64,000 bases of DNA, taken from Elusimicrobiales bacterium (lineage in GTDB: Bacteria > Elusimicrobiota > Elusimicrobia > Elusimicrobiales > UBA9959). Where the stretch lies: the NCBI GenBank assembly GCA_031082205.1, contig JAVHLJ010000008.1, forward strand, positions 1-64,000, in the 5' to 3' direction. Positions 4,748 to 30,432 of the stretch are shown one piece after another. The position numbers were made by a program, and so were the translations under genes. The number at the start of each line of letters is the position of its first letter. The first letter of the stretch is position 1. Below the pieces are notes generated by a model. The model was given only the letters and a program-made list of their open reading frames with translations, was not told the origin of the DNA and made no database searches.

Positions 4748-5206
4748 ATGCACCGGACCTTCACGCTAATCCTCGCGGCAGCGCTATCGGCGCCGGCCGC
4801 CGCCGGCGCCAAGTCGATCGCCCAGGCCAGGGCCGAAGTGGTGGACGCGACTATGGTCTATCTGAACACGCCGTACCTCTGGGGCGGCATGCACCCGGAC
4901 ACGGGCATGGACTGTTCTGCCTTCGCCAAGCTGGTCTACGGCAGGGCCGGCCTGGAACTGCCGCGCGTCTCGCGCGACCAGTTCGCCGCGTCCCTGCGCC
5001 TGCCGCCGGCCGGCGTGCTGCCTGGCGACCTGGTATTCTTCGCAATGAAAAATCCCGGCACTGCCCGGGTGGACCATGTCGGGATATACGTCGGCAAGGG
5101 CTTCTTCGTCCACGCCTCTTTCACCAACGGCGTGCACATCGATTCCGTCCAGAACCCCTACTACTACCAGCGCCTCGTCTCCGTCCGCAAGTACCGCGGT
5201 TTTTAG
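4748..5206 (+). CDS. NlpC/P60 family cell-wall peptidase, secreted
   Basis: 152 aa with a signal peptide (about residues 1-21) followed by a minimal NlpC/P60 domain. The catalytic triad is visible: Cys56 in MDCSAF, His110 in VDHVGIY and a third His at 122 in FVHAS. YLWGG near 43 and LPGDLVFF near 91 are family hallmarks. Such enzymes cut the D-Glu to diaminopimelate bond of peptidoglycan stem peptides in the periplasm. The ATG was chosen because it starts the signal peptide; there is no Shine-Dalgarno and a -10 box sits 9 bases away. The 3' end overlaps the convergent radical SAM gene by 4 bases. Confidence 0.93.
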   Translation: MHRTFTLILAAALSAPAAAGAKSIAQARAEVVDATMVYLNTPYLWGGMHPDTGMDCSAFAKLVYGRAGLELPRVSRDQFAASLRLPPAGVLPGDLVFFAMKNPGTARVDHVGIYVGKGFFVHASFTNGVHIDSVQNPYYYQRLVSVRKYRGF

Positions 5207-17347: not shown

Positions 17348-18586
17348 ATGAAAAAACAGATCTTGGAAAAAATAGCTTCCTACCAGGACTACGCCATTGA
17401 GCTGCAGCGCGGCCTGACCGCCATACCGGCCCTGGCGCCCTCCAGCGGCGGCGACGGCGAATACGACAAGGCCAAGTGGCTCGAGGGCGAGCTCAAAAAG
17501 CTCAAGTTCGACTCCATCGAGTGGATAAACGCCCCTCAGAAAGAGGCCAAGAACGGCATCCGCCCCAATGTGATCGCCCGCTACAAAGGCAGGAGCTCCG
17601 CCAGGACCATCTGGTTCATGAGCCATCTCGACATAGTCCCGCCCGGCGAAGCCAAGCTCTGGACCTCGGACCCCTATAAGATGGAAGTGAAGGACGGCAA
17701 ACTCATCGGCCGCGGGGTGGAGGACAATCAGCAGGCGATAGCCTCCAGCATCATGGTAGTCAAGGCGATGATGGAACTCGACTACCGCCCCGAGCACGAT
17801 ATAGCGCTGCTCTTCTGCGCGGACGAGGAGACCGGCTCCGGCTTCGGCGCCGACTATATCTCCGAGAAGCGCCCGGACATCTTCGGCAAGGACGACGTCT
17901 TCTTCGTGCCCGACTCCGGGACCGAGGACGGCGCCATGATAGAAGTGGCCGAGAAATCGATACTCTGGATGAAGGTCGTGACCAAGGGCAAGCAGTGCCA
18001 CGCCAGCCGCCCGTCGCTGGGCGTCAACGCCTTCAAGGCGGCCAGCGACCTGGTGGTCCGCTTCCAGAAGCTCTATAAAAAATTCCCCAAGAAGGACCGC
18101 CTCTACGAGCCCCCGATCAGCACCTTCGAGCCGACCAAGAAAGAGAACAACGTCCCCAACGTGAACACGCTGCCCGGCGAGGACGTGTTCTACATGGACT
18201 GCCGCGTCATGCCGTGCTACCAGCTCGCCGAGGTGAAGGCCGAGATGCGCCGCATGGCCGACGAGGTGGAAGCCAAATACGGCGTGAAGATAGAGTTCGA
18301 GCCTCAGCAGGAAGCGCAGGCGGCCCCGCCCACCGACCCGAAAGCCCCGATAGTTCTGGCGCTGAAGAAGGCCATCAAGGAAGTACTTGGCGTGAAGCCC
18401 AGGGCCTACGGCATAGGCGGCGGCACCGTCGCGGCCTTCTTCCGCAGGCTCAACCTGCCGGTGGTGGTGTACTCGCGCCTCAACGAGAGCGCGCACATGC
18501 CCAACGAATACTGCGTCATCGACCACATGATGGGCGACGCCAAGGTCTTCGCGGTGACCACCCTGCTGCTCTGCAAGGAGAAATAA
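17348..18586 (+). CDS. M20 family metallopeptidase (ArgE/DapE/dipeptidase type)
   Basis: 412 aa. Zinc-ligand motifs are present in order: MSHLDIVPPG near residue 95 (HxD), GRGVEDNQQA near 122 (bridging Asp), DEETGSGFGADY near 160 (catalytic and metal Glu), and PDSGTEDG near 190. A dimerisation lid follows from about 205. Such enzymes cleave dipeptides or acyl-amino acids. GGAGGAG lies 6 bases before the ATG. It heads a five-gene block; the next ATG follows its stop directly (TAAATG). In that setting it may trim or recycle the ligase product. Confidence 0.9.
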   Translation: MKKQILEKIASYQDYAIELQRGLTAIPALAPSSGGDGEYDKAKWLEGELKKLKFDSIEWINAPQKEAKNGIRPNVIARYKGRSSARTIWFMSHLDIVPPGEAKLWTSDPYKMEVKDGKLIGRGVEDNQQAIASSIMVVKAMMELDYRPEHDIALLFCADEETGSGFGADYISEKRPDIFGKDDVFFVPDSGTEDGAMIEVAEKSILWMKVVTKGKQCHASRPSLGVNAFKAASDLVVRFQKLYKKFPKKDRLYEPPISTFEPTKKENNVPNVNTLPGEDVFYMDCRVMPCYQLAEVKAEMRRMADEVEAKYGVKIEFEPQQEAQAAPPTDPKAPIVLALKKAIKEVLGVKPRAYGIGGGTVAAFFRRLNLPVVVYSRLNESAHMPNEYCVIDHMMGDAKVFAVTTLLLCKEK

Positions 18587-19257: not shown

Positions 19258-20214
19258 ATGTCCGAAGAAAAGGAGATAGAACTTTTCACGCCCGGCTGCC
19301 TCGGCACCTGCTGGTACGGAAAATATCACTACTTCGAGCCCTGGGCCGGCTGCGGGCACGACTGCCCCTACTGCTACGCCAGGTTCCGCGCGCCGGTCAA
19401 AGTTTCCTTGTCCCGCCTCGGGACTCCGTTCGAGGAACCGAGGACGCTTTATCCCGAAGAAGAACTCCTTCGCCGGACCGCCGAGAGGGCGGCTTCCGGG
19501 GAAATTTCCATCCTGAAGTTGTGCCGCTACACCGACATCTTCACCCCCTCCTTCGTAGGGAGCGGATTAAGCCTTAAACTCCTCGACGCGCTGACCGGCC
19601 CCGCCTCCCGGATCTCCCGGGTGATAATAACTACCAAGGGGCTGCCCGACAAGGACATCATCGACCTGATACGCTCCCGGCCGGCGAAGTTCTCATACAA
19701 CGCGGCGGTACGCCCGGGGACAGCGGTCTCTTTCGACCGGGCCCTGCTGCCCGCCGGGGAGCGCCTGGCGGCCGCGGCGGCCATACAGGCCGGAGGCGTC
19801 CTGACCACCGTACACATGGACCCGTTCGTTCCCGGCTTCGACGACGAGTCCGCCGCGCTCAAGCCGTTCCTCGAAGGCCTGAAGAAGCTGGGCCTGAACC
19901 GGGTCATGTTCTCTTACCTGCTGCTTTCCGGTGAAATGGCGGCGCCGCTGGAAAAGGAACTGCCGCCGGCAGTTTTCGCCGCGCTCAAGGATAATTACGA
20001 CCTGGCCGAAAGCCGCCAGTACCTGCCCAGACAGGCAGATACCGTCTACTGGGCCATAAGGCCGGAGGTCAAGCGGGCGTCGGTGGAGAAGACCGCGGCC
20101 ATGCTGAACGACATGGGCTTCGATTTCGTCCTCTGTTCGCTGAAGAACACGCCGGGCCTGGACACCACAAAGTTCAAGGGCACAAAACTCTGCGACGGCA
20201 AGTTCTATGCCTAG
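19258..20214 (+). CDS. Radical SAM protein, SPL-like
   Basis: 318 aa from the ATG at 19258; a GTG at 19243 that overlaps the upstream stop would add five residues and is almost as good. The cluster motif is Cys32-x3-Cys36-x2-Cys39 (CGHDCPYCYAR). The CxYCYAR form and the mid-protein ITTKGLPDKDIIDL resemble spore-photoproduct-lyase-like and uncharacterised Radical_SAM proteins. Two further Cys (14, 18) lie ahead of the core. No SPASM extension is present. The last 8 bases overlap the ATP-grasp gene. The substrate is unknown. Confidence 0.85.
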   Translation: MSEEKEIELFTPGCLGTCWYGKYHYFEPWAGCGHDCPYCYARFRAPVKVSLSRLGTPFEEPRTLYPEEELLRRTAERAASGEISILKLCRYTDIFTPSFVGSGLSLKLLDALTGPASRISRVIITTKGLPDKDIIDLIRSRPAKFSYNAAVRPGTAVSFDRALLPAGERLAAAAAIQAGGVLTTVHMDPFVPGFDDESAALKPFLEGLKKLGLNRVMFSYLLLSGEMAAPLEKELPPAVFAALKDNYDLAESRQYLPRQADTVYWAIRPEVKRASVEKTAAMLNDMGFDFVLCSLKNTPGLDTTKFKGTKLCDGKFYA

Positions 20215-21451: not shown

Positions 21452-22644
21452 GGGAAAAACTGGCGATAATATTCTCTTTCGTCCTCATCTTCGCTTTCAA
21501 TACCGCGGACAACGCCATCGCCCCCCTGGTAGGCCCGCTGTCGGAAGCTTTCGGCGTCGGCGCCGGGCAGGCGCTGTGGCTGATAACCGCCTGCACCGCG
21601 GGCACGGTGGCCGGCCTGATCGTCGGGCCCGCCGCGCTCAGGGCGCTGCATCCCGCCCGCTTCCTGCTGCTCTCGGCCGCCGCGCTGGCCGCGACGCAGG
21701 CCCTCTTCGCCTTATCGTCGTCCTTCGCCGCGGCGCTCCTCTTCAGGTCCATATCCGGCCTGGGCGCGGGATTCGCCGCGGTCTTCATGTGGCGGCTGGC
21801 TTTTCACGGGCTTTCCAAACCCGCAATGCCGACGATGCTGGCGGTGCTGATGTCGGCCAGGCCGCTGGCCACGGCGATAGGCGTGCCGCTGGCCGCGCTG
21901 GGAGCCTGGAAGATGAGCTGGCAGACTCCGGTCTGGGCGGTCGCGGCCCTCACCGCCGCCGGGGGACTGGCCCTCTATTTTTCCATGCCGGCGGCCGCCG
22001 CGGAACAGCCTGACGAAAGACCAAAAAGCCTGTTAGGCACCTACGCCTCGGCGCTCTCGGTGCCGCACGCCTTAACCTATTACGCGGGATTCACCGTTAA
22101 CCGCATGGCCTACTTCGGCTTCTACGCCTTCTGCGGGGTGTGGTTCGACGGGCATTACGGCCTGGACCTCAAAAGCATAGGGCTGGCGCTGCTGATCATC
22201 GGGCTCGCCGAGGCGCTTGTGAACTTCGCCACACCCGCGATCATAAAGCGGCTCGGTCACAGGCCCGTTTTCACCATCTCGCTCGGCGCATCGGGCGTCC
22301 TGCTGCCGCTGTTCATATTCGGCCGTCTGCCGCTGCCGGCCGCCATAGCGCTCATCGCCCTGTTCATGCTGCTCGACCGGGTCTACTCGATGGCGCTGGT
22401 GATGACCATCCCGGACATGTTCCCGCACACCGGCGACAAGACGGCCTTCGGCTCGCTCAACACGCTGACAGCCTGGGGCGGTCTTATGATCATCTCCTGG
22501 TTCCAGGGCGCTTTTCTAGGGAAGATAGGAATGACGGGCATCGAGGCCGCGCTCATCGCCGCTTTCCTGGCAGGCTCCGCGATGCTGTATCTGGTCCAGA
22601 AGCGCACCGTACTCCGCGAGCCGGCCCCGGCGGCCCCGCGATAG
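21448..22644 (+). CDS. MFS transporter, last gene of the ligase operon
   Basis: 398 aa, 12 predicted membrane helices, split by a loop near residue 190 (EQPDERPKS). The N-terminal half has the pattern of drug or metabolite exporters (AFNTADNAIAPLVGPL...). It starts inside the ATGA overlap with the ATP-grasp gene. Export of the operon's product is the simplest reading, but MFS polarity cannot be read from sequence. Confidence 0.88.
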   Translation: MREKLAIIFSFVLIFAFNTADNAIAPLVGPLSEAFGVGAGQALWLITACTAGTVAGLIVGPAALRALHPARFLLLSAAALAATQALFALSSSFAAALLFRSISGLGAGFAAVFMWRLAFHGLSKPAMPTMLAVLMSARPLATAIGVPLAALGAWKMSWQTPVWAVAALTAAGGLALYFSMPAAAAEQPDERPKSLLGTYASALSVPHALTYYAGFTVNRMAYFGFYAFCGVWFDGHYGLDLKSIGLALLIIGLAEALVNFATPAIIKRLGHRPVFTISLGASGVLLPLFIFGRLPLPAAIALIALFMLLDRVYSMALVMTIPDMFPHTGDKTAFGSLNTLTAWGGLMIISWFQGAFLGKIGMTGIEAALIAAFLAGSAMLYLVQKRTVLREPAPAAPR

Positions 22645-24142: not shown

Positions 24143-25195
24143 TCAGCGCGCGCCGGAGCAGGCTATGGCCATGTCCTTGCGGTACTGGGTTATGGAGCGG
24201 CGCGAGAGGTCCACGCCGTGGCGGTCGCGCAGTTCCGAGCGGAGCTTTTCGTCGCTGAAGGCGGGATGCTGTTCGGCTATGGCGCAGAGACGCTCCAGGT
24301 TGACCTTCTTGGAACTGGGCAGCAGCGTGACCATAGGGGCTTCCATGCCCCAGGGCATCCGTATGGACTTGTTGGAGACCAGGCGGTTGAGCACGCTGGG
24401 GTGCACTTCGAGATTTTTCGCCAGCGTCTTCTGCGAGAGAGGGCGGCGGCGGCCGGGCTCGCCGGTGCGCAGGTAGTCGGCCTGCACGCTGACGAGTATC
24501 TCGAGGGCGCGGTAGAGGGTGGATTTGCGTTTCTCGGCGAACTCTACGCGCTTGAGCACCTTTTCGACGCCGTCGCGCTCGGACAGCGGCATGTCGCGCA
24601 TCATCTCGGTCAGCTTATCGTTGTCCACCTTATAGCTGCCCTTCCAGATCTCGCGGTGGAAGAAGGCCAGCACCGGGATGCCGTCCTCCAGGTCGATGCC
24701 GGCGACCGCGCTGAAGACGGCCGATTCCGGCCCCTCGGCGGGAGCCTCGAACTCGGCCTGCATATAGACGCGGTTGACGAAGTCGCGCAGGCGGGCGGAG
24801 TCCTCCGCGGAGATGCCGCATTCGCGGGCGCGGGCGGCGTCGCTCATCGCGGCGTCCTTGAGGAAATAATTCTCGAAGTTCTCCTGGCCTATGCCCTGTA
24901 TGAGCGCCACCAGGTCGCCCTTACCGTCGGCCAGCTCGGGCAGTTCGCCCGCGGACAATTTCATGCCGCGGCCGGCGTTGCGCAGCGCGGCGTAACGGGC
25001 GGCCGGGTACTCGGAGACGCGCAGCGCTCCGGAGGTCTTGAGCAGCTGGAAGAAGCGGTTGCCCTCCAGCGCGGCCAGCTGTTTTTCAAATTCCTCTTCG
25101 CTGAGTCCCGCCAGCTGCGCCAGTTTCAGCGCGCCCATGAGGGCCGCCGATGTCCTGGCGCCTGTCGAAAATCCTATTCTTCCCATCCTGGCCAT
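24143..25195 (-). CDS. Short, divergent sigma-54 (RpoN-like) factor
   Basis: 350 aa against 420-500 for ordinary RpoN. The last 20 residues hold a recognisable RpoN box, SRRSITQYRKD (canonical ARRTVAKYRE), which reads the -24 element. Residues 249-280 (RPLSQKTLAKNLEVHPS...SNKSIRMPWG) match the HTH of the core-binding/DNA-binding region (canonical RPLTLKDIAE..HESTVSRVTSNK). Residues 20-55 resemble a reduced region I, which contacts activators. The acidic region II is missing. GGAGA lies just before the ATG. A near-consensus sigma-54 promoter 64 bases upstream suggests autoregulation, and a GAFTGA activator is encoded divergently. Confidence 0.8.
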   Translation of the reverse strand: MARMGRIGFSTGARTSAALMGALKLAQLAGLSEEEFEKQLAALEGNRFFQLLKTSGALRVSEYPAARYAALRNAGRGMKLSAGELPELADGKGDLVALIQGIGQENFENYFLKDAAMSDAARARECGISAEDSARLRDFVNRVYMQAEFEAPAEGPESAVFSAVAGIDLEDGIPVLAFFHREIWKGSYKVDNDKLTEMMRDMPLSERDGVEKVLKRVEFAEKRKSTLYRALEILVSVQADYLRTGEPGRRRPLSQKTLAKNLEVHPSVLNRLVSNKSIRMPWGMEAPMVTLLPSSKKVNLERLCAIAEQHPAFSDEKLRSELRDRHGVDLSRRSITQYRKDMAIACSGAR

Positions 25196-26782: not shown

Positions 26783-26957
26783 CGAGAGATCTTCAAAACT
26801 GCTGCATGACCTTCGCTCCAAATGCTCCAGCCTCAAGAGCGCGGCCGAGCTCTACAAGGACTGTTCCCCCGCGGAGAAGAAAGAAATGCTCGCGCTGATG
26901 AAGCAGGCCGCCTTCGAGATATCGGCCGCGCTCGAAAAGCTCGGGTCCGGCGCCTGA
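26775..26957 (+). CDS. Stand-alone DHp/HisKA-like mini protein
   Basis: 60 aa, wholly helical in appearance. The first helix reads LLHDLRSKCSSLKSAAELY, which follows the H-box of histidine kinases (HDLRxPLxSIxxxAELL) with the acceptor at His11. A second amphipathic helix (EKKEMLALMKQAAFEISAALEKL) would close the two-helix hairpin. There is no sensor and no ATPase domain. The ATG lies within the last 8 bases of the response-regulator gene, so the two are made together. It may pass or hold phosphate, or dimerise with a full kinase encoded elsewhere. The His role is inferred. Confidence 0.7.
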   Translation: MTDERSSKLLHDLRSKCSSLKSAAELYKDCSPAEKKEMLALMKQAAFEISAALEKLGSGA

Positions 26958-26966
26958 CGCCCGGCC

Positions 26967-27010
26967 AAAAAAGGACCGGAACGCCGCCCTACCCTGCCCG
27001 GCGCCCGGTC
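26967..27010 (-). terminator. Intrinsic terminator of the radical SAM/M50 operon
   Basis: Minus strand: GACCGG (27010-27005) with inner GCGCC pairs back to GGCG and CCGGTC (26979-26974), followed by C and TTTTTT (26972-26967). It lies 18 bases after the M50 stop. Confidence 0.65.
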
Positions 27011-27022
27011 ATTCTCATCGAA

Positions 27023-27037
27023 GCAATTTAAGTGCCA
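27023..27037 (-). promoter_or_regulatory. Third sigma-54-like element, over the M50 stop codon
   Basis: Minus strand: TGGCAC-TTAAA-TTGC, an exact match to the -24/-12 consensus with GG and GC 10 bases apart. It spans the last codons and stop of the M50 gene. The predicted start (about 27011) falls at the edge of the terminator hairpin, so any product would be an RNA of about 45 bases. It could be chance; see findings. Confidence 0.4.
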
Positions 27038-28158
27038 GCCCCGCCCCGCAGTTCCAGCCACTCCTGGCGTCCTTCCTTGAACCGGTTGAGCCCGCCCGCC
27101 AGGCCGACGAAGACGAAGTAAGCCCAAAGTATTATTTTATAGCCCCCGTCGAAGAAATAGCCGGGGGAGCGCCATAGTTCCCCCAGCCCGTTCCATATAT
27201 ATCCCAGGCGCATGTAGACGAACCACAGGAAGTACAGAGTGAATACGGCGAAGGCCAGCAGATAGACATGATGTACCGCCCGCATCAGGCGGCTGTGACG
27301 CAGCTCGGAATAGGTGTCCTTGTAGAGCCAGTAGCCGTCGGTGCGGAAGAGCGGGTTGAGATTGAAGAATATTATCAGCATTATCCAGCGCACGGCCTCG
27401 GCGGCGCTTGGGCTGCCGGTCAGAAAGAGAACGAGCAGAAGTCCGAGCAGGAAGACCGACTGGAGAATGAAGCCGCCGCAGTCTATGAGCGCTTTCTCCC
27501 GCAGTTTAAGTTTGTCTATGCCGGAGACGTTGGTGTAGAAGACCGGGTAGATCAGGTATACCGAGAAGCCGATGGGCCGCAGGCCTATGCCGGCCGCGGC
27601 GGCCGCCATGGAATGTCCCAGCTCATGCACCAGGCTGGCCGCTATCACTATGGCTATGACCAGCGGGCCGCTGGCGGCGCCGGGCGGAGCCGGCGGGGCG
27701 GCCAGCGAGGGCGCGGCGGAATAGAGAAGTCCCCAGGCCAGCCCGGCGGCGGCCGGCCAGGCCAGAAAGCGCAGGGCCTTATCGAAAACGCCGGGGCCGA
27801 TCCCGAAAAGCGAGAAGAATCTTTCCTGCGCCCTGGAGGGCAGCAGGCGTATCCTGGGCGACACGACGGCCCGGAAGACATCCCCGGCGGTGCGGCGCGC
27901 GGCTTCGCGCAGCGCCCCTATGGACAGCAGCCTGTCGAATATCCGCGCGGGGTCCTCTATGCCGAGCCCGGACATCGCGCGCAGAAAATCCTCCCTGACG
28001 CCCCGCTCCGGGATATTGCCTGTCAGCCAGGCCGTCTCTTCCGCCAGGGTATAGCAGGATGTATCCGTTATCGCCAGGACCTTGTCCCCGCTGGGGACGG
28101 AATACGCCCCCTTCAGGTGGTTCTCGTAAACCCGGGCGTCCGGCGCGGCGTCAGCCAT
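27028..28158 (-). CDS. M50 (site-2 protease-like) membrane metalloprotease
   Basis: 376 aa. Residues 1-125 are a soluble domain. About six membrane helices follow, the second holding HELGH (178-182). NPLFRTDGYW at 268-277 supplies the third zinc ligand Asp274, the standard M50 NPxxxxDG pair. The domain order (soluble N-terminus, M50 core) is like M50 proteins encoded with radical SAM/SPASM enzymes in peptide-modification loci. It overlaps the radical SAM gene by 8 bases and ends at a terminator. Cleaving the leader from a modified peptide at the membrane is the likely job. Confidence 0.88.
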   Translation of the reverse strand: MADAAPDARVYENHLKGAYSVPSGDKVLAITDTSCYTLAEETAWLTGNIPERGVREDFLRAMSGLGIEDPARIFDRLLSIGALREAARRTAGDVFRAVVSPRIRLLPSRAQERFFSLFGIGPGVFDKALRFLAWPAAAGLAWGLLYSAAPSLAAPPAPPGAASGPLVIAIVIAASLVHELGHSMAAAAAGIGLRPIGFSVYLIYPVFYTNVSGIDKLKLREKALIDCGGFILQSVFLLGLLLVLFLTGSPSAAEAVRWIMLIIFFNLNPLFRTDGYWLYKDTYSELRHSRLMRAVHHVYLLAFAVFTLYFLWFVYMRLGYIWNGLGELWRSPGYFFDGGYKIILWAYFVFVGLAGGLNRFKEGRQEWLELRGGAGT

Positions 28159-29566
28159 GAGTCGAGACCAGGTCCGGCTCGCTCCGGCCGCTTTCGGCGG
28201 CCGCGCCCGAGGCGCTGCGCTGGTAGGCGAGCTTCACGGATTCGAGTATGACCTTCTTCGTGTCCTCGCAATGCGGCTTGAATATGTCGCCGGTCCTGGC
28301 CCGGCACTTCGCCCCGCACTGCCCGCCGCAGGCCAGGGCCACGGAGCATTCCAGGCATTCGGGCATATTGGCGATATGCCTGGTCTTGTATTTATCGTGC
28401 AGGGGGAAGAAATCGACGCCCTCGCGCGAGACACGGCCTACCCGGTGCTCCGGGTAGCCGGCCTCTTCGAAGCAGGCGTAAAGGTCGCCGAAAGGGTCCA
28501 CTACCAGCGTGCGCTGCATGGTCTGCATGCAGAAGCAGGTCTTCATCAGGCCGAGTCCCTTCTTCAGGCCGAAAAGACGGCTCAGCTCGTTGGCGCGCAG
28601 GCTGACGGGATGCTCCAGGTCTATCCCCAGGTCGAAGACGCGGGAGGAGAGGTCCGTCATGTCCATGAAATCCGTGGCGTCCACCCTGGCGATATTGTCG
28701 TGCAGCGGGCTGGCGTATATCGTGGCCAGTTTATTGCCGAGTATCTTCTTTTCCTTGAGGTCCTTCACCAGCGCCGGCACCGACTCCAGCGTGCGCCTGT
28801 CGAGGTTGAGCCTGATGCTGACGCGGGTCCCGCGCTCCAGCAGCATGGCCATGTTGGAGAGCATCCTGTCGTAGGTGGCCTCGCCGGAAGCGGGCACGCG
28901 CGAGGCGTCGTGAAGGGGCTTGTCCCCGTCGAGCGACACCTGCACCTGGCTGACCAGCCCGGGGGCGGGACCGAAGATCTCGGGCATGGCGTCCACCATC
29001 GTGGCGTTCGAGATGGCGGTGGCGGGCATCCCGTATTTCGCGGCGTAGCCCAGCGCCTTGCGGATAACGGGCAGGTTAGCCGGCAGGAAAGGCTCTCCGC
29101 CGTAGAAGGAGACGCTGCAGTTCTTTAGCCCGGCTCCGGGGATGATCGAAGCGAGGTGACGGTCGAAAACATTGTCCACCATCTCTTCGCTCATGACCGC
29201 CTTCGATTTGCCGGGCCGGTGCTCCTGCTGGTAGCAGTACTTGCAGGCCAGATTGCAGTTATAGCTCATCAGCAGCATTATCCCCGCCGCCCCGGACTCC
29301 TTCGCCTGCCTGTCGTAAAGGGCGGCCACGAACGTCTTGAAGCGGGCCAGCTCCTCCGCCGGAGGAAGGGTCGTGATATGGCCGCGCTTGAGAAGAGCCG
29401 CGGCGTCTTCGGAGGAAAGTTCTCCCAGCCGCTCCCGGGCGCCGGAGAGGAAGATCTCCGCCGGCGCGCCGGATATTTCATCCAGGCAGCCGTTCACGCC
29501 GTTGAAGAGAAGCGCGGACCCGCCCAGGTCTATGACGTTAAGGTAGCGGCTGATGTTGTAGCTCAT
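28151..29566 (-). CDS. Radical SAM/SPASM peptide-modifying enzyme
   Basis: 471 aa. Residues 1-95 form a small N-terminal domain (ISRYLNVIDLGGSALLFNGVNG...) like those that bind leader peptides in this class. The radical SAM motif is Cys104, Cys108, Cys111 (CNLACKYC). The C-terminal SPASM domain has Cys404, 407, 413, 417, 421 and 433 plus Cys near 345-365, enough for two auxiliary Fe-S clusters. Such enzymes install thioether or C-C links in ribosomal peptides, or act as maturases. AAAGGAAAG before the ATG is the ribosome binding site. The Cys-rich peptide encoded upstream is the evident substrate candidate. Confidence 0.93.
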   Translation of the reverse strand: MSYNISRYLNVIDLGGSALLFNGVNGCLDEISGAPAEIFLSGARERLGELSSEDAAALLKRGHITTLPPAEELARFKTFVAALYDRQAKESGAAGIMLLMSYNCNLACKYCYQQEHRPGKSKAVMSEEMVDNVFDRHLASIIPGAGLKNCSVSFYGGEPFLPANLPVIRKALGYAAKYGMPATAISNATMVDAMPEIFGPAPGLVSQVQVSLDGDKPLHDASRVPASGEATYDRMLSNMAMLLERGTRVSIRLNLDRRTLESVPALVKDLKEKKILGNKLATIYASPLHDNIARVDATDFMDMTDLSSRVFDLGIDLEHPVSLRANELSRLFGLKKGLGLMKTCFCMQTMQRTLVVDPFGDLYACFEEAGYPEHRVGRVSREGVDFFPLHDKYKTRHIANMPECLECSVALACGGQCGAKCRARTGDIFKPHCEDTKKVILESVKLAYQRSASGAAAESGRSEPDLVSTHG

Positions 29567-29804
29567 GTTCTTTCCTTTTCTCTATTCCGCGGGCGCGCAG
29601 GCCCGGGGCTGCAGCGATCTTTTGGCAAGTATCCGGCAGATCTCCGGCCTGTCGGAGACGGCGGAGCCTGTCGGAGACGCCCTCGACATCGTTCTCGAAA
29701 GTGGAGGCGTCCAGCTCCATAGGTACGGACATCTCCTCCTTCTCCCGCGGCTCTATCGCGGCGAAGGCGGGCGCGGCCGCCAGGATCATTATTATCGCTT
29801 TCAT
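29538..29804 (-). CDS. Small secreted protein, C-terminal frame probably shifted
   Basis: As read, 88 aa: signal peptide (MKAIIMILAAAPAFA), then an acidic stretch (EPREKEEMSVPMELDASTFEND). AGAGGA lies before the ATG at 29804. The frame runs 29 bases into the radical SAM gene. A 14-base direct repeat with 19-base offset (29647-29679) falls mid-gene. Removing one repeat unit shifts to a frame encoding VSDRPEICRILAKRSLQPRA and then CAPAE and TAG at 29582-29584, ending just before the next ribosome binding site. I think that is the ancestral C terminus. It may be a second peptide substrate or an export/immunity factor. Confidence 0.62.
   Translation of the reverse strand: MKAIIMILAAAPAFAAIEPREKEEMSVPMELDASTFENDVEGVSDRLRRLRQAGDLPDTCQKIAAAPGLRARGIEKRKEHELQHQPLP
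29647..29679. repeat. 14-base direct repeat, 19-base offset
   Basis: GCCTGTCGGAGACG occurs at 29647-29660 and 29666-29679 (plus-strand sense). The 19-base offset is not a multiple of three, so gain of one unit shifts the reading frame of the small secreted protein gene. It could be slippage in nature or an assembly artefact. Confidence 0.8.
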
Positions 29805-29828
29805 CTGGTCCTCTTAAAATATACCAAT

Positions 29829-30077
29829 TTAACCCTTGTACGGGTGGCAGTTTATGTAGCCTGAGGGGCCGTCGCAGTCGCAGGGACTAAGGATGCTGCT
29901 GCAAAGCGACGGGCAGTTCGGGCAATCGAAGCAGTCTATGTGTATATGGATGACGCACTGGTCCACGCCGCCCGTCTTCTCCATTCCGGCCACAGGAGAA
30001 AGGGCCTGGAAATCCATGCGGTCGTTTAGCTTTTCCAGCGTCAGGACCTCCCCATCGGTCAGGTTCAGGGACTTCAA
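29829..30077 (-). CDS. Cys-rich RiPP-like precursor peptide
   Basis: 82 aa from a TTG at 30077. Residues 1-37 look like a leader (LNLTDGEVLTLEKLNDR) ending in Gly36-Gly37. Residues 38-82 are a core with eight Cys (41, 49, 52, 55, 59, 66, 68, 77) and three His/Ile alternations (VIHIHID). An ideal start exists upstream: AAGGAG (30108-30103), 7 bases, ATG (30095), but the frame then reads ATG AAC TAG AAA AAC ATA TTG. So UAG is the third codon of what looks like MN-x-KNILKSLN. It lies directly ahead of the radical SAM/SPASM and M50 genes and has a sigma-54 promoter. A metal-binding protein is an alternative. Confidence 0.75.
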   Translation of the reverse strand: MKSLNLTDGEVLTLEKLNDRMDFQALSPVAGMEKTGGVDQCVIHIHIDCFDCPNCPSLCSSILSPCDCDGPSGYINCHPYKG

Positions 30078-30173
30078 TATGTTTTTCTAGTTCATTGTGT
30101 TACTCCTTGTATCCTTTCTTGATCCGGCCGGCCTTTGCTTTGCGGCCGCATCCTACCCTCGAAAGCAAGTGAA

Positions 30174-30188
30174 GCAATTTTAATGCCG
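30174..30188 (-). promoter_or_regulatory. Sigma-54 promoter of the Cys-rich peptide operon
   Basis: Minus strand: CGGCAT-TAAAA-TTGC (followed by TT). The invariant GG (30187-30186) and GC (30175-30174) are 10 bases apart. Twelve contiguous bases (GGCATTAAAATT) plus GCT are shared with the element in front of the sigma factor gene. Predicted start near 30162, 67 bases before the ATG at 30095. Confidence 0.82.
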
Positions 30189-30432
30189 TTAAAAACGCGC
30201 TTTTAAGCTCTTTTATCGCCAGAAAAATCCTTATCATGGCTCATTCCGGGTGCTATATTTTCATATGAAAAAAAATTTCACTCCCACCCGACACCCTGAT
30301 TTTACACGAAGGCCTGCCCCTCAGCCGTCCCGAGGCCCCCGCCCAGCCCACGCCCCGTTCGCGCGTGACTTAACTTGGTATAATTAGGCGCTGGTTTTCC
30401 CGCTGGAGAGCCCGCTGTCTATGGAGGAAACG
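30189..30432 (+). promoter_or_regulatory. Intergenic region with extended -10 promoter for the M16 genes
   Basis: The gap between the divergent peptide operon and the M16 genes holds no convincing gene. TTGG-TATAAT at 30375-30384 is an extended -10 (TG-n-TATAAT) without a good -35. GGAGG at 30424-30428 is the ribosome binding site for the ATG at 30433. Upstream activator sites for the sigma-54 promoter may lie here, but no clear inverted repeat was seen. Confidence 0.5.

Follow-up and report, generated by a model that had tools for sequence, protein, structure and literature searches.

Systems in which a radical SAM/SPASM maturase is encoded beside a Cys-rich precursor, as modelled by TIGR04463 (rSAM_vs_C_rich), and ordinary recent pseudogenes or nonsense alleles of accessory natural-product clusters are the closest described counterparts of the locus reported here, which lies on the minus strand of a 64 000-nucleotide stretch (hereafter the window) of contig JAVHLJ010000008.1 from an Elusimicrobiales bacterium (genome G000). 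The locus resembles the former in that a conserved leader precedes a Cys-rich core and a maturase gene adjoins, but its cassette also encodes an M50 peptidase and a TPR protein whose start is signal-like. The maturase (28151–29566, minus strand; 471 residues, intact; Pfam Radical_SAM, 1.5e-11) aligns over most of its length with the maturase models TIGR04463, geopeptide, PapB and SCIFF, but scores far below all of their curated cut-offs; its best NCBIfam match, TIGR04463 (5.5e-36), reaches 124.2 bits against a cut-off of 525. Its best solved relative by sequence is the radical SAM domain protein 5wgg, which we take to be the thioether-forming maturase CteB. The M50-family membrane metallopeptidase (27028–28158, minus strand; 376 residues, intact; Pfam Peptidase_M50) is related to RiPP-associated HExxH proteases. 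Judged from these matches, the cassette is predicted to work like a radical SAM/SPASM RiPP system, while falling outside every curated model by score.

As in ordinary nonsense alleles, the locus carries a lone early stop with its Shine–Dalgarno site and reading frame retained. Direct reading of the minus strand gives AAGGAG, TAACACA, ATG AAC TAG and AAA AAC ATA TTG, followed by a frame that is open to TAA, in agreement with the initial annotation, which had reported an in-frame amber codon at this position. The Shine–Dalgarno-like AAGGAG (30103–30108) is separated by a 7-nt spacer from the ATG, and a site resembling AGGAG/GGAGG occupies this position in most relatives. The segment 30087–30095 holds the ancestral start (ATG, 30095–30093), codon 2 (AAC, 30092–30090) and the premature amber at codon 3 (TAG, 30089–30087), and the TTG of codon 7 (30075–30077), a possible weak reinitiation codon, lies past the stop. 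What remains of the precursor gene (codons 4–88 plus the stop, 29829–30086) comprises 85 codons and closes at TAA 29831–29829; the translation past the TAG is KNILKSLNLTDGEVLTLEKLNDRMDFQALSPVAGMEKTGGVDQCVIHIHIDCFDCPNCPSLCSSILSPCDCDGPSGYINCHPYKG, in which the leader KNILKSLNLTDGEVLTLEKLNDRMDFQAL is followed by the Cys-rich core.

The precursor is 88% identical to that of a same-genus relative, G017 (UBA11179, DNQL01000308.1), and its leader is conserved across 22 aligned relatives. Aligned to the window copy, a leader profile with Met1 included runs across the TAG with exactly one stop inside; this alignment, together with the match of the downstream frame to 28 other leader genes, indicates that the start and frame are more than chance. 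With the TAG excluded, dN/dS against G017 is ∼0.10 over the 85 codons after the stop and ∼0.03 over leader codons 4–34, so that the frame past the stop shows strong purifying selection in comparison with its nearest relative.

Homologous precursors were found in 13 of the 59 genomes searched from the family. Their alignment defines a common leader, M[NK]xx.IIKSLN[LM]TxGExLTLEKAxDRMEFEAL; the Cys-rich core behind it is variable. Neither this copy (against Pfam) nor any of the 22 members (against NCBIfam) gave a match, and the precursors would accordingly represent an Elusimicrobia radical-SAM precursor family that is uncatalogued in the libraries searched; a literature search on Elusimicrobia with radical SAM or RiPP found nothing relevant. 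The named source records of the homologues are Elusimicrobia metagenome assemblies with one exception, an Oligoflexia bacterium (JADGAM010000086.1, locus L053), which has a precursor and a maturase of this type while lying outside Elusimicrobia, pointing to either transfer or a mis-binned contig. Tandem precursors, two or three with near-identical leaders and differing Cys-rich cores served by one maturase, occur at G034:C81:25266-26154 (L035), G019:C15:126218-126642 (L040) and G025:C10.

When the leader profile was run over 235 genomes of the class, 29 matches were obtained in 15 genomes, and only the window copy contains a stop. Among the other 28 copies, 27 begin with ATG, mostly behind a Shine–Dalgarno-like site, and continue with sense codons; the exception, on contig C9 of G044, has no recognizable start. 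This last copy (L148, G044:C9:9242-9517) is Cys-rich and precursor-like, with a leader that opens with KPLNFTDGE inside a 448-codon open frame, and is possibly another damaged copy. Two apparent parallels to the window stop were rejected: a TGA in G034 is where the precursor there naturally ends, and a TAG in a distant maturase match from G029 lies just past the natural C-terminus.

The comparison of codon 3 among relatives that the initial annotation had called for is thereby available. The precursor of G017 reads ATG AAC TCA AAA AAC ATC TTA (MNSK), sharing the ATG but encoding serine at codon 3 and having TTA in place of TTG as its seventh codon. The initial annotation had also allowed that relatives might all begin downstream with no homology upstream; instead, they start at this ATG. 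Since they do so, and since codon 3 is a sense codon in the nearest of them, the ATG can be taken as the ancestral start and the TAG as derived; on this comparison, the TAG and the TTG are each confined to this genome.

The second gene of the operon is also broken. In G017 the operon order is precursor, TPR protein, radical SAM maturase and M50 peptidase, and the TPR gene (L033:4486-5217) is intact, encoding a 243-residue protein with a signal-like start. Alignment with this homologue shows that the window retains an 88-residue remnant (29538–29804, minus strand) with a signal-peptide-like start, frameshifted by a deletion. Overlapping blastn ends and the alignment place the junction of this 506-nt deletion at a CCGCCGT heptamer (29658–29664, minus strand), and in G017 the stretch that is missing here has this 7-nt repeat at either end. 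Because the 506 nt do not make up a whole number of codons, equivalents of G017 residues 1–51 and 217–243 survive in different frames. Most related cassettes carry a TPR gene at this position, and its loss here is thus derived. That the operon has also suffered an inactivating deletion between short repeats is a further likeness to ordinary recent pseudogenes; the difference is that here two of the four genes have been struck while the maturase and peptidase genes are open.

The maturase gene is 93% identical to its G017 counterpart, with a dN/dS of ∼0.07–0.13. When the second G017 cassette serves as outgroup, synonymous and nonsynonymous changes in the maturase number 32 and 15 on this branch versus 22 and 17 on the G017 branch, and neither relaxed constraint nor a lesion was seen in the maturase on this branch. 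This argues that the inactivation was very recent or that the enzyme still has a job on another substrate. A candidate for the latter is an orphan precursor on contig C18 of this genome; a second cassette lies on contig C61, where the contig stops within the maturase gene and the precursor is hence not visible.

Taken together, these observations make it probable that codon 3 of a RiPP precursor gene in a decaying accessory cassette has become TAG by nonsense mutation. This reading draws on the sense codon 3 of the relatives, on the intact homologues that share the start and on the second lesion next door, and of the options listed in the initial annotation, nonsense mutation is the one that the comparisons favour. 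The ribosome would load at AAGGAG, start at the ATG and make Met-Asn, upon which RF1 would release the dipeptide at the UAG. Full-length precursor would be abolished or strongly reduced, and reinitiation at TTG 30077 could supply at most a small amount of a product with a leader six residues shorter, making the allele leaky. The locus would then be an accessory one in early decay, with the substrate and the TPR gene lost ahead of the maturase, and the open radical SAM and M50 genes would reflect either erosion yet to come or service to other substrates, such as the orphan precursor or that of the second cassette. Two observations tell against decay: the unrelaxed maturase and the precursor frame itself, inspection of which revealed no lesion besides the TAG. 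The event itself would be an ordinary one, in which an accessory peptide cassette carries a nonsense allele, and not a new genetic code. It has a practical side, in that gene callers will start the gene at TTG 30077 or miss it altogether, and a shortened leader would mislead substrate predictions.

The same perfection of the remaining frame, with TTG, leader and core all kept, could instead mean that the stop arose as an error in sequencing or assembly, or that the consensus took up a minority strain variant, with a sense codon as the true codon 3. The assembly is fragmented (98 contigs), as this explanation would have it. However, the window codon differs from the TCA of G017 at two bases, and a base-call error would leave the independent 506-nt deletion in the neighbouring gene unexplained; we regard an error of this kind as unlikely.

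Improbable, in our estimation, is a working gene of low output, in which ribosomes that stop at the UAG reinitiate at TTG 30077, by luck or as a throttle, to yield an 82-residue precursor. The TTG is in frame only 9 nt past the stop, the leader that would be kept (KSLNLT...LTLEK...DRMDFQAL) holds all of the nearly invariant residues except Met1, and the maturase and M50 genes are intact and constrained. Against this stand the lack of conservation of both codons, the absence of such a device from all 28 other leaders and the breakage of the TPR partner gene as well. The initial annotation had gone further in raising a deliberate two-codon ORF, that is, a minigene with an ideal ribosome site that throttles output by permitting it only through reinitiation at the downstream TTG. 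Comparison lends this no support, the nearest relative having TCA and TTA at the two positions, and we consider it quite improbable; as a conserved regulatory minigene it was rejected, both codons being private to the window copy.

Translation of the UAG as an amino acid, by a suppressor tRNA, pyrrolysine or a recoding signal, would account for an ideal start that runs through the codon into a conserved frame, but the genome encodes RF1 (above the curated cut-off), none of the 43 tRNAs found reads UAG (a set that is nearly complete, although Asn and Trp tRNAs were likewise not found), PylS is represented only by a subthreshold match of 23.5 bits against a cut-off of 178 inside a 706-residue frame, and no relative carries the TAG. 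Gene ends agree. The initial annotation had judged general reassignment of UAG unlikely by citing three normal TAG stops in the window; those at 5204–5206 (NlpC/P60) and 22642–22644 (MFS) do close genes with real domains, whereas that at 20212–20214 is shaky, as it ends a 666-residue ORF that lacks a match in Pfam and overlaps genes for an M20 peptidase and a methyltransferase. TAG also exchanges with the other stops between species: in a table of orthologous gene ends, many of whose ORFs are shadow frames, the M20 gene at 18584 ends in TAA here and the sigma-54-like gene at 24143 in TGA, and both end in TAG in G019. The judgement on reassignment is thus borne out; UAG as a sense codon was rejected, decoding at this site is on these grounds very unlikely and we attach next to no weight to it.

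A derived nonsense allele would fit the wider distribution of the cassette. A small precursor with a conserved leader beside a radical SAM maturase recurs across genomes, as in other radical SAM RiPP cassettes, and precursor, TPR protein, radical SAM maturase and M50 peptidase appear to form a recurring Elusimicrobia RiPP cassette. In two other members of the genus, G018 and G019, comparison of 26957–30421 of the window with loci L125 and L126 revealed an empty site, the response-regulator side and the M16 peptidases being adjacent with no cassette between them. The cassette is dispensable in these genomes, given its absence between the same flanking genes. The M16 flank of the window is ∼92% identical to that of G019, ∼91% to G018 and ∼87% to G017, and nucleotide identity between G000 and G017 is ∼90% in the maturase/M50 part versus 83% in the M16 flank. 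Flanks nearer to G019 and G018 combined with a cassette like that of G017 suggest a history of horizontal exchange or differential loss.

Elsewhere in G018 (G018:C11:177-1586, L127) there is a maturase whose 5′ region closely resembles that of the maturase on contig C176 of G017. Its precursor is gone, the TPR gene is reduced to its last few codons and a methyltransferase-like frame is joined in front, an arrangement that is possibly a mis-assembly. Within the genus, two of four genomes thus retain a maturase whose neighbouring substrate gene is damaged or absent, and in these two members the substrate and TPR genes seem, from their sequences, to have been lost before the maturase. Four more radical SAM matches (29–37% identity) lie together on one contig of the window's own genome (G000:C44:2967-19859) and perhaps mark another peptide-modification cluster.
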